A DNA stretch of 64,000 nt, from positions 1,488,001 through 1,552,000 of the forward strand of contig NZ_CP119802.1 of assembly GCF_029338355.1 (NCBI RefSeq), in the 5' to 3' direction. Positions 1 to 39,961 of this stretch are shown piece by piece. Below the pieces are notes generated by a model, which was not told where the DNA came from, did no database searches, and saw only the letters and a program-made list of their open reading frames with translations. The DNA is from Halosegnis marinus. Its GTDB lineage: Archaea > Halobacteriota > Halobacteria > Halobacteriales > Haloarculaceae. The first letter of the stretch is position 1, and each line of letters begins with the position of its first letter. Both the position numbers and the translations under genes were made by a program.

Positions 1-932
1 GCCTTCGTCCCCGGCGCGGGTTCGAGCGAGACGGTCGCCTCCGTCACGACGGCGAGCGTGCCCTCGGACCCGGCGAGCAGGCGCGCGAGGTTCACGGTGC
101 CCGCCTCGCTGTCGGGGTCGGTGCCGGTGCCGTCCGGCAGGGGGCGCTCGCCGCGGGCGTCCTCCACGAGCGCGTCGAGGTTGTACCCCGAGACGTTCCG
201 CTTCAGGTCGGGGTAGCGCGCGTCCACCTCGTCGGTCTCCTCGTCGAGTATCCGCACGACCTCGGCGTAGATGCGGGGGAGGAGGTCGTCGGCCTCGGGG
301 TCGGCCTCGGCCCTGAGGTCCGCGACCGCGACCTCCCCGAGCCGGGTCACGGTGCCGTCGGCGAGGACCGCCTCCACCTCCTCGACGTAGTAGTCCGTCT
401 TCCCGTAGACGAGCGAGTGCGACCCGGTGGAGTTGTTGCCGATGGCCCCGCCGAGCGCGCTCTTGTCGCCCCACGCCGGGTCCGGGCCGAAGGTGAGGCC
501 GTGGTCGGCCGCGGCGTCGTTCAGGTGCGCGATGGTGACGCCCGGCCCGGCCGTCGCCGTCCGCGCGTCGGGGTCCACCTCGCGCACGCCGTCCATGTAC
601 CGCGAGCAGTCGAGGACGACGGCCTCGTTCACCGACTGGCCGGCGAGCGACGTGCCGCCGCCGCGCGGCAGGACGGGAATCCCCTCCTCGGCGCAGTACG
701 CCACGACGGCGGCCACGTCCTCGGTCGAGCGCGGGAGGACGACCCCCACCGGAAGCCGCTCGTAGGCGCTGGCGTCCGTCGCGTACAGCTGTCGGGTGTA
801 CTCGTCGAACCGCACGTCCCCCGCCACGAGCGGTTCGAGGTCGGCGACGAGGTCCGGGCGCGCCACCTCGCCGCCCGCGTAGTCGTAGTCTGCGGCCCCG
901 TCCCCGGCGGGGTCCGTCTCCTGCGTTGCCAT
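1..932 (-). CDS. FAD-binding (and probably Fe-S-binding) oxidase, GlcD/D-lactate dehydrogenase type, N-terminal part
   Basis: The gene runs off the left edge; about 310 codons from its start are visible. It begins MATQETDPAG, and the PCMH-type FAD-binding domain is clear: GGGTSLAG at about residues 91-98, then a glycine-rich stretch with AGPGVT and GGAIGNNSTGSHS. This N-terminal form is typical of the roughly 1000-residue haloarchaeal oxidases that carry a C-terminal Fe-S/GlpC-like domain, but that half is outside the window. The family oxidises 2-hydroxy acids such as lactate or glycolate; the substrate here is unknown. The ATG at 932 lies about 27 bases from a TATA-like element near 956-962, so the transcript is probably leaderless. 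Confidence 0.85.
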   Translation of the reverse strand, partial: MATQETDPAGDGAADYDYAGGEVARPDLVADLEPLVAGDVRFDEYTRQLYATDASAYERLPVGVVLPRSTEDVAAVVAYCAEEGIPVLPRGGGTSLAGQSVNEAVVLDCSRYMDGVREVDPDARTATAGPGVTIAHLNDAAADHGLTFGPDPAWGDKSALGGAIGNNSTGSHSLVYGKTDYYVEEVEAVLADGTVTRLGEVAVADLRAEADPEADDLLPRIYAEVVRILDEETDEVDARYPDLKRNVSGYNLDALVEDARGERPLPDGTGTDPDSEAGTVNLARLLAGSEGTLAVVTEATVSLEPAPGTK

Positions 933-1019
933 ACGCGACGTTCCGACCGGGAGGGGATAAACGCCCGCCCGGCGGCGAGCGCAACGCTTTCGCCGCTCCG
1001 CGCGCTTCCGTCGGTAGGC

Positions 1020-1475
1020 GTGGCCATCACGGACAAGATATACCTGAAGAACCACCGGCAGATAGCCTCGCAGCTGGAGACCTCCATCCCGAAGAGCGCC
1101 TTCTCCGGGGCGACGCTCGACCTGCTGTTCCAGGGCGAACAGCTGTCGAAGCTGGACGAGGCCACACAGGAGCGCGTGCTCGACTTCGCGACCGACTTCC
1201 TCGACTGCGACTGCGAGTCGAACCCCTACTGCGGCCACCCCGAGCGGAAGTTCGTCTCCTACCTGCTCGACCTGCGCGCGCAGGGGCTCGGCCCCGACGC
1301 CATCGTGGACGTGATGGGCGACGACTACATGCTGTACGCCTACTCCGGCGACGTGCTCTCCTTTCTCGACGACTCCGTCCGCTCGCTGGAGGCCATCGAG
1401 GAACTCGCGGACGTGGACGGCCGGAAGGAGGCCGCGGAGGCCGCACGCGAGCGCCGACGCGACCTCTCCGGCTGA
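1020..1475 (+). CDS. Conserved haloarchaeal protein of unknown function (151 aa)
   Basis: I chose the GTG at 1020 because the reading frame upstream is arginine-rich shadow sequence overlapping the divergent oxidase gene, while coding character starts at AITDKIYLKNHRQ. The protein is acidic and helical with a cluster of three cysteines and a histidine (DCDCESNPYCGHPE, about residues 70-83) that could bind metal. It resembles a small conserved haloarchaeal family, possibly the one labelled DUF5814, but I am not certain of the name. It is divergent from the oxidase gene with an 87-base gap. No function can be assigned. Confidence 0.8.
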   Translation: MAITDKIYLKNHRQIASQLETSIPKSAFSGATLDLLFQGEQLSKLDEATQERVLDFATDFLDCDCESNPYCGHPERKFVSYLLDLRAQGLGPDAIVDVMGDDYMLYAYSGDVLSFLDDSVRSLEAIEELADVDGRKEAAEAARERRRDLSG

Positions 1476-1847
1476 CTCGGTTTTCGGCCTTCCCGGCCCC
1501 CCTCCGTTTCCGGTCCGGCGCGCGCCGGCGAGCCTGTCGTGGCGAGCCAGCGCCGCGCGAGGTGCTCGTGAGCGCCGCGAACGAACGCTCGGAAGGCGAG
1601 CGGAGCGAGCCGTCCGGTGGACGAGTGAGCGGAGCGAACGAGTCGGCTGGGGAGGCGTGTGGGCGGTGCGGTCGCGGTGCTGTTCTCATGGAACCGTGCG
1701 AGCAGGGCGTTTCTGCGACTGTAGCTGAAGACGCCGAGCGAGAGCAGGGCGTTCGCCGGCCCTTACACCGACGGAACCGAACCGCCTACCCGAAGCAGGC
1801 CAGCAGGACAGCGACGCGGTCGGAAAAACCGCGAGAAGAGGGACGGG
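1476..1847. other. 372-base gene-free stretch holding a dispersed repeat
   Basis: This lies between two converging genes and I see no credible ORF or RNA gene in it. It contains the element described at 1544-1715. It also holds a 12-base direct repeat, GAGCAGGGCGTT, at about 1700-1711 and 1742-1753. The rest is GC-rich sequence with short GAGCGGAGCGAACGA-like palindromic motifs. Confidence 0.7.
1544..1715 (+). repeat. Dispersed intergenic repeat, copy A
   Basis: Bases 1643-1680 are identical over 38 bases to the reverse complement of 39704-39741. Similarity extends on both sides. On the left is a GAGCCAGCG start and a GGAGCGGAGCGA-like block; on the right is a GAACCG...AGCAGG.CGTT..CTG block ending near 1715. 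Copy A carries extra sequence in its left part compared with copy B. The type of element (mobile, RNA or regulatory) is unknown. Confidence 0.8.
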
Positions 1848-14255: not shown

Positions 14256-14570
14256 GTGTACGCGTTCCCCTTCGCGCTCGTCCTCGGCGGCCTCGGCGTC
14301 GGCCTCTCCTACGTCCTCCTCGGCGCGACGTGTTACTTCACGGGCTACCGGACGGACCGGCCGCGGCTGAAGTCGTTCGGCGAGACGCTGCTCACCCGCT
14401 CGCCGGCCTGTATCGTCGGCGTCGCGGTCGCGTACGTCCTCCTGACGACCGGCGTCGGCGTCCTCGCGCTCCTCGCGCTCGGGGTCGCCGCGGTCGGCGC
14501 GCTCCTCCCGCCGGCGTGGGCGCTGATAGTCGCACTGGACGACGCGAAAGAAGGGGACGACGGGAACTGA
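14256..14570 (+). CDS. Small membrane protein (104 aa), GTG start
   Basis: The GTG at 14256 begins VYAFPFALVLGGLGVGLSYV; no ATG is available in the coding part. Two or three hydrophobic segments are visible (residues about 5-25, 52-75, 78-98), and the C-terminus is acidic. I do not recognise a family. The gene lies divergent from the prenyl synthase and ends six bases before the converging etfA gene. Confidence 0.68.
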   Translation: MYAFPFALVLGGLGVGLSYVLLGATCYFTGYRTDRPRLKSFGETLLTRSPACIVGVAVAYVLLTTGVGVLALLALGVAAVGALLPPAWALIVALDDAKEGDDGN

Positions 14571-14576
14571 GTCCGG

Positions 14577-15539
14577 TTACGGCGCCTCGCCGCCGAACTC
14601 CTCGATGAGTTCGGGAACCACGTCGAACAGGTCGTCGACGATGGCGTAGTCGGCGATGTCCATGATGGGGGCGTTCGGGTCCGTGTTCACCGCGATGATG
14701 GTGTCGGAGCCCTTCATGCCGGCGACGTGCTGGACCGCCCCGGAGATGCCGATGGCGATGTACACGTCCGGCGTGACGACCTTCCCGGACTGGCCGACCT
14801 GCCGGTTCTTCGGCAGCCAGCCGTTGTCGACGATGGGTCGCGACGACGACAGCGTCGCGCCGAGCGCGTCGGCGAGCGCCTCCACGAGCGGGAGGTTGTC
14901 CTCCTCCTCGATGCCGCGCCCGATGGAGACGAGCACGTCGGCCTCGGAGATGTCCACGTCGCCGGCGCCGACCTCCTCGAACCCCTTCACGTCGGAGCGG
15001 ACGGCCGACTCGTCGAGGTCGAAGTCGAACTCGGCGATCTCGGCGTCGCCCGTCCCCTCGGCGGCGGGCCACTCGGCCGGCCGGATGGTGAGCGCGAAGC
15101 GGTCGGCGTCCACCTCGACGGTGGTCTCGACCTTGCCGCCGTACTGCTCGCGGGTCACTTCGAGGGTGCCGTCGGCGTCGAACGCGACGGCGTCCGTGAC
15201 GAGCGGGCGGTCGAGCGCGCCGGCGACGGCCGGCGCGTAGTCCAGCCCGTTGACGGTGTTCGCCATCAGCACGGCGTCGGGGTCGTGCGCCTCGGCCATC
15301 GCGGTGACCGCCTGCGTGTACACGTCGTGGTTGAACTCCTCGCCCTCCGCGACGGTGTGGATGGCGTCGACGCCCTCGCGGTTCAGGCGGTCGGCGAAGC
15401 CCTCGACGTCGCCGCCGATGACGGCGAGGTGGAGGTCGGTGCCGAGCGCGTCGGCGAGTTCCCGACCCGCGGTGACGACCTCGAAGGAGGGGTCGCGAAG
15501 TTCGCCGCGGCGGTGTTCCGTCACTGCGAGGACGGTCAT
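14577..15539 (-). CDS. etfA: Electron transfer flavoprotein alpha subunit
   Basis: The 320-residue protein has an N-terminal adenine-nucleotide alpha-hydrolase-like domain and a C-terminal FAD-binding domain. The signature includes VSIGRGIEE, GATLSSSRPIVDNGWLP, QVGQSGKVVTPDVYIA, GISGAVQHVAGM and AVNTDPNAPI. It carries electrons from acyl-CoA and similar dehydrogenases to the quinone pool. The start overlaps the stop of etfB by four bases (15536-15539), so the subunits are translationally coupled. Confidence 0.94.
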   Translation of the reverse strand: MTVLAVTEHRRGELRDPSFEVVTAGRELADALGTDLHLAVIGGDVEGFADRLNREGVDAIHTVAEGEEFNHDVYTQAVTAMAEAHDPDAVLMANTVNGLDYAPAVAGALDRPLVTDAVAFDADGTLEVTREQYGGKVETTVEVDADRFALTIRPAEWPAAEGTGDAEIAEFDFDLDESAVRSDVKGFEEVGAGDVDISEADVLVSIGRGIEEEDNLPLVEALADALGATLSSSRPIVDNGWLPKNRQVGQSGKVVTPDVYIAIGISGAVQHVAGMKGSDTIIAVNTDPNAPIMDIADYAIVDDLFDVVPELIEEFGGEAP

Positions 15540-39590: not shown

Positions 39591-39961
39591 GGGTCGCTTT
39601 CCTCGTTTTGCGTGTTCGCTCGATAGCGTAGGGCATCGCTCGTGCTCGTTCTCCCCAGTTCTCGCTTCAGTAACGTCCTGCTTACGCGGTTCTAGGGACA
39701 ACCGCACCGCGACCGCACCGCCCACACGCCTCCCCAGCCGATTCCTTCGGTCGCTCCGCTCCCTCAGTCATCCCTCGCACGCCGCTGGCTCGGCATACCG
39801 CCTCGCCAGCGCGCGCCACAGCCGGTCGGGGCTTTCGAGGTGTTCACCCGGGTGCCGAGAACGTGCGGAGCGTTCCGAGCGGGACGAACCGCTCGGAAGT
39901 CGAACAGCCGACGTAGTCGCGAGACACGGAGCTTTATCGCCCCGCGGTCCGGCCAGGGCCC
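39591..39961. other. 371-base gene-free stretch holding a dispersed repeat
   Basis: This lies between the alcohol dehydrogenase and the small membrane protein gene. It contains element copy B (39668-39793, minus strand). The last 60 bases hold the promoter of the next gene (GCTTTATCGC at about 39931-39940). I see no ORF or RNA gene. Confidence 0.7.
39668..39793 (-). repeat. Dispersed intergenic repeat, copy B
   Basis: The reverse complement of 39704-39741 equals 1643-1680 over 38 bases. The flanks also match copy A in order: a GAGCCAGCGGCG block at 39784-39793 and the GAACCG...AGCAGGACGTT.CTG block at 39668-39692. Copy B is more compact than copy A. Confidence 0.8.

Follow-up and report, generated by a model that had tools for sequence, protein, structure and literature searches.

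A dispersed non-coding repeat of haloarchaea with a strand-specific GA-ladder hairpin, probably an old non-autonomous mobile element

An intergenic repeat, present twice in a 64,000-nucleotide stretch of Halosegnis marinus DNA (the window; C1:1488001-1552000, C1 being contig 1 of the two contigs of a 2.81-Mb genome, G000), is probably a haloarchaeal dispersed element, miniature, non-autonomous and non-coding; in this reading it is ancient, was moved in trans and has a folded strand under selection (probability about 0.6). The new part of the finding is the fold, a strand-specific hairpin of a new kind. Among copies from many genera, a variable block of the repeat is paired end to end as GAY-GA-NN-GA-NN-(GA-NN)-loop-(NN-GA)-NN-GA-NN-GA-RTC, and in this hairpin, P2, 2-bp Watson-Crick steps alternate with tandem G.A steps around a loop that is often GNA. 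The pattern of sequence variation clearly points to selection for folding on one strand.

A sequence-only reading of the window had reported a 38-base perfect match between two gaps, the only gene-free stretches of more than 300 bases. Both observations were reproduced. Bases 1643-1680 and 39704-39741 are exact reverse complements of each other, with exact identity stopping at both edges, and the gaps of 372 bases (1476-1847, between convergent genes) and 371 bases (39591-39961) are the sole ones of that size, the third-longest gap in our own gene calls being 264 bases. The 38-base identity is the best-conserved stretch of the unit, comprising the end of P2, an invariant 18-mer and a GCGGT block. 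Since the repeat has 16 genomic copies, the match is not due to chance; a chance duplication was ruled out by these copies together with matches in 252 genomes. The earlier limits, 1544-1715, were replaced by a unit at 1517-1711 on the plus strand with a duplicated tail reaching to near 1757, and by a second copy at 39672-39817 on the minus strand. The view that the repeat is neither coding nor an obvious insertion sequence was borne out, as gene calling placed no gene in the element and unit length varies among the aligned copies without retention of frame. The features of the two copies are as follows.

1517-1711, plus strand: copy 1, a unit of 195 bp (units fall into two length classes, of which this is the longer), from alignment with the 15 other genomic copies
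1517-1557, plus strand: P1 of copy 1, the left hairpin GGCGCGCGCCGGC-GA-GCC...GGC-GA-GCCAGCGCC, from DNA folding of four copies; P1 also folds from many copies, a set that includes some unrelated coding matches
1558-1619, plus strand: extra module of copy 1, two further hairpins, one with a tandem G.A step, from alignment and folding
1620-1644, plus strand: P2 of copy 1, the GA-ladder hairpin GAC-GA-GT-GA-GC[GGA]GC-GA-AC-GA-GTC, from covariation and a genome-wide scan in which only GA forms such ladders
1645-1662, plus strand: invariant G-rich 18-mer of copy 1, GGCTGGGGAGGCGTGTGG, conserved across genera
1663-1711, plus strand: GCGGT block and genus-specific right end of copy 1, ...TTCTCATGGAACCGTGCGAGCAGGGCGTT, from alignment; right ends differ in other genera
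1742-1757, plus strand: outer tail GAGCAGGGCGTTCGCC, a repeat of the right-end motif
39672-39817, minus strand: copy 2 of the unit, 146 bp, from genome search and alignment
39778-39817, minus strand: P1 hairpin of copy 2, from DNA folding
39740-39772, minus strand: P2 of copy 2, the GA-ladder hairpin GAT-GA-CT-GA-GG-GA-GC[GGA]GC-GA-CC-GA-AG-GA-ATC, from end-to-end pairing and covariation
39722-39739, minus strand: invariant 18-mer of copy 2
39672-39692, minus strand: right-end motif of copy 2, GAACCGCGTAAGCAGGACGTT, from genome search
39827-39847, minus strand: terminal motif GTGAACACCTCGAAAGCCCCG left of copy 2, which in fuller elements forms the terminal inverted repeat, from motif search

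The genes flanking copy 1 (window 1-1480 and 1847-2300) are neighbours in none of five congeners, and a rearrangement breakpoint lies at the repeat.

The sequence-only reading had called for a count of the copies. A genome search identified 16 copies of a unit of about 146 bp, every one on contig 1 and none coding, and a profile built from ten copies recovered the same 16 in the 2.45 Mb of the genome searched. As compared with copy 2, the copies are 74-88% alike, and therefore no pair is a recent duplicate. In the aligned copies the left ends are sharp (GGCGCGCGCTG), as are the right ends in this genus (...GAACCGCGCGAGCAGGGCGTT), and the order of the unit is P1, GCGAGG, the variable purine-rich block, the invariant 18-mer, the GCGGT block and the right end. 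Several copies have a duplicated right tail; a right boundary at CGTT was widened once these outer tails were seen. The extra module of copy 1 (about 50 bases) is common only to copy 1 and the copy at C1:409914-410110. Units of other genera keep the left part and the 18-mer but have right ends of their own, GGTGGGACTGAAAGGGGC for example in genomes like those of Halosimplex and TCATAGGTACCGGGAGTAGCTAGC in Halorussus. Gaps between convergent genes hold 6 of the 16 H. marinus copies, and the upstream gene runs into the element in 11, sometimes with its stop codon only 5-10 bases before it. The minus strand carries 12 of the copies, and a stretch amounting to 42% of the chromosome holds 15 of them (C1:409914-1527817; p about 0.002 versus random intergenic placement). 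We also observed a second subfamily, in which GTCATGGGGGAGGGTTGG replaces the 18-mer beside the same terminal motif (C1 about 1228304, 1239663, 1394574, 1157222-1157288 and the 409914 region), and about twenty tandem repeats of a 15-bp unit of the CCGGTCCGGCTACTGTT type in the right flank of the copy at 1412615 (C1 about 1412.2-1412.6 kb).

The pairing of P2 was assessed in two sets of sequences. In the 33-base class, 91% of the Watson-Crick cells are paired, as compared with 52% after the 3' halves were swapped between copies. In a 26-sequence alignment, 97.4% of the P2 cells are paired; shuffling lowers this to 73.3 +/- 1.9% and sliding the register to 19-41%, and the doubly changed cells number 56 versus 17. 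Tandem G.A pairs, like GNA loops, are stable whether in RNA or in DNA. Because the complementary strand would require T.C mismatches, the fold is strand-specific. When the whole genome was scanned for hairpins in which a single dinucleotide supplies two mismatch steps or more, GA gave 9 (TC marking the same places on the other strand) and any other dinucleotide 0-1; all 9 are non-coding, and a simulated genome yielded 0. Four of the 9, likewise non-coding, lie outside the 16 copies, at C1:406300, 831168, 2127237, 2279397 (minus strand). For three of four copies folded singly, the sense strand did better than its shuffles, the antisense strand being weaker; the folds also located subterminal palindromes, namely P1 near the left end and a weaker hairpin near the right end. 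Longer variants appear, in a reading by eye only, to contain a second motif, in which a 5-bp stem that covaries is flanked by GA facing GCA.

A covariance model of P2 and the 18-mer gave matches (E <= 1e-4) in 252 of 391 Halobacteria genomes, representing 58 of 84 genera. Because no more than 14 matches per genome were scored, copy numbers in this survey are lower bounds, to be read as "at least", and many of the genomes carry none or one. The earlier proposal of a haloarchaeal intergenic family is thus upheld, by the 16 copies here and by the relatives that also carry the family. In the GTDB collection the exact 18-mer occurs mainly in haloarchaea, and the matches outside them are without the hairpin blocks. 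It was found on haloarchaeal plasmids; phages gave no match to it. A virus origin was rejected, since a search for the 18-mer in 2.9 million viral contigs returned one match, with the rest of the unit missing, and no phage. Across genera, convergent-gene gaps hold 21 of 51 units versus a background of about 20%, and the left gene lies on the plus strand in 29 of the 51. At locus L243, from 4263 onward, a unit is followed directly by GACATCCTCCCACCCCTGAAGGGGTGGG, which we take to resemble the palindromic end of haloarchaeal IS200/IS605-type elements.

Comparison with congeners revealed both occupied and empty sites. At the site of copy 2, the stop-to-start gap is 371 bases here versus 38 in congeners G004 and G002, where a TATA-like TTTATC near the downstream gene is kept, and the site is also without the element in G005 and G001; the 333 extra bases exceed the length of the unit. 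Conversely, three sites at which G001 and G005 both carry a unit have none in H. marinus, two of them inside the window.

967-1015, unstranded: empty site here, with a unit at the orthologous place in congeners G001 and G005, from comparison with congeners
14430-14590, unstranded: empty site here, with a unit at the orthologous place in congeners G001 and G005, from comparison with congeners

Since orthologous sites are occupied in some genomes and empty in others, the family disperses. This dispersal is apparently not recent, and in this genome it looks old. Further evidence was obtained from the ends of the elements. In Halobaculum sp. XH14, the plasmid copy consists of two units arranged head-to-head as an inverted pair, with inverted repeats (GTGACG..CTCGAAAGCCCCCG) at its limits, and the gaps in Halobaculum halophilum and Halobaculum salinum are far shorter and hold remnants. 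Inverted repeats of GAACACCTCGAAAGCCCC stand at a few element ends. Terminal inverted repeats are present in XH14 and as half-ends in a few H. marinus copies, the left one being missing in most of these. The terminal motif ACACCTCGAAAGCCCC has 27 exact places in 9 of 59 genomes, and the reversed control has 0. An antisense unit lies within 400 bp on the left, head-to-head, in 12 of 79 units versus about 0.1 expected, where one pair is countable from each side. No target-site duplication is visible at XH14 or at the H. marinus copies, whose boundaries are not fixed by any close empty site; exact insertion points could not be fixed because the congeners are too diverged. The suggestion of a non-autonomous mobile element therefore survived in part: occupied and empty orthologous sites, and terminal inverted repeats in some members, speak for it, and a target-site duplication, a mobilising enzyme (the search covering Y1 transposase) and near-identical copies were not found.

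We weighed other explanations for the fold and for the dispersal. One is that the family is a structured RNA, whose purine-rich strand is transcribed alone or within a 3' UTR and acts as folded RNA, e.g., as a 3'-end stabiliser or a protein-binding RNA, with dispersal being secondary. The strong strand-specific covariation, the better folding of the sense strand, the reading of upstream genes into 11 of the 16 H. marinus copies and the foldable variants at the orthologous sites of G001 and G005 are all consistent with this. In well-registered P2 helices, G.U pairs also outnumber A.C (11 versus 3, one-sided p 0.03), but a looser selection of helices gave 15 and 19, respectively, and we count this test as weak because the strict and loose selections lean opposite ways. 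Moreover, orientation to the neighbouring genes varies across genera, as seen from the strand of the left gene, and Rfam holds no match, which rules out a known RNA family: in Rfam 15, no family reached its gathering score, and a relaxed threshold gave only mir-639 (E 0.2), far below gathering and nothing credible. We regard a structured RNA family as rather unlikely. The GA-ladder motif is wider than this element, and we tentatively entertain, with somewhat more confidence, that a class-wide hairpin motif of 2-bp Watson-Crick and tandem G.A steps with a GNA-type loop may be a functional RNA or a shape-recognised folded ssDNA, and have been carried into most genera of haloarchaea by a mobile element. 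It is also conceivable that mutation created the covariation with no selection. Template-switch correction of quasi-palindromic arms is established, and the arms here are short inverted repeats. However, template switching would make GA/GA into TC/GA, whereas GA/GA is fixed in place while the adjacent Watson-Crick steps change, and no other dinucleotide behaves like GA; we find this explanation barely credible.

The positions of the copies could instead reflect selection that keeps, at many places, a DNA site used in recombination, replication or chromosome organisation. The clustering of 15 copies, the invariance of the 18-mer and the synteny break at copy 1 relative to all five congeners would suit such a site. 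Against this, the sites differ between congeners, many Halobacteria genomes have none or one copy, and the two strands are not equivalent, because the ladder forms on one only. The chromosome-organising role proposed earlier is without direct support, the clustering being suggestive at most, and we consider it improbable. Mobilisation as a PATE/REP-type element, with single-stranded hairpins as the substrate of a Y1 (IS200/IS605-like) transposase, would agree with the subterminal hairpins, the asymmetric ends and the absent target duplication, and haloarchaeal PATEs have already been described (PMC3119063). Nevertheless, the fuller members have terminal inverted repeats, and the Y1 transposase (PF01797) is absent from this genome with its 16 copies and from G004, G007, G025 and G026. 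It is present in G003, G006, G008 and G011, genomes without an element match. Since the transposase is absent in several copy-rich genomes and present in copy-free ones, this mechanism is disfavoured, and we judge it very improbable.

The preferred reading remains that of an old non-autonomous mobile element; in keeping with the definition of a MITE, it is short (about 146 bp), non-coding and multi-copy (16 copies). Its copies would have arisen by transposition in trans through an enzyme, and the folded single strand, either ssDNA during mobilisation or a transcript, would be recognised by that machinery or by the host; the stems may covary because the folded strand is what is recognised. Copies would survive chiefly where they are least harmful, beyond gene 3' ends. 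The evidence speaks well for past mobility, and not for present activity. Structure is kept at the G001 and G005 sites, which suggests that folding may also count once a copy has been inserted, beyond the needs of a purely selfish element.

The closest described elements are SMR-A and SMR-B of Haloquadratum walsbyi (PMC3119063), likened by description and not by sequence. Like our unit, they are short haloarchaeal repeats that encode nothing, have inverted ends in their fuller members and show no visible target duplication. The SMRs are about 80-110 bp, have prominent ITRs and often lie inside other mobile elements (PMC3119063), whereas this unit measures about 146 bp, mostly sits between genes beyond their ends and occurs class-wide, with GA-ladder hairpins and with ITRs only in fuller members. 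According to the consulted part of their account (PMC3049150), BOX, RUP and SPRITE of Streptococcus pneumoniae are likewise modular, structured, intergenic, enriched between convergent genes and apparently old and non-autonomous. They differ in domain and sequence, RUP and SPRITE being AT-rich and BOX and RUP having TIR and TSD, and that part describes no tandem G.A ladder for them. REP/BIME and haloarchaeal PATEs resemble the family in their hairpins and multiple copies, and its inverted pairs recall BIMEs; unlike them, it has several copy-rich genomes without a Y1 transposase, freely varying stems and inverted terminal repeats in fuller members. Covarying stems and an invariant unpaired stretch are shared with the structured RNA families of Rfam 15, none of which it matches.

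We found no description of this repeat family in the papers covered by our searches on its motif and topic. The family occurs in about two thirds of the sampled haloarchaeal genomes, yet it has no Rfam model, and its non-canonical fold escapes ordinary palindrome searches. The fold would account for common purine-rich intergenic runs of the GAGCGGAGCGAGC type. It also provides a system in which selection on the folding of one strand, with the stem sequence almost free, can be tested, and the element is a candidate route for the growth of haloarchaeal intergenic regions and for genome rearrangement.
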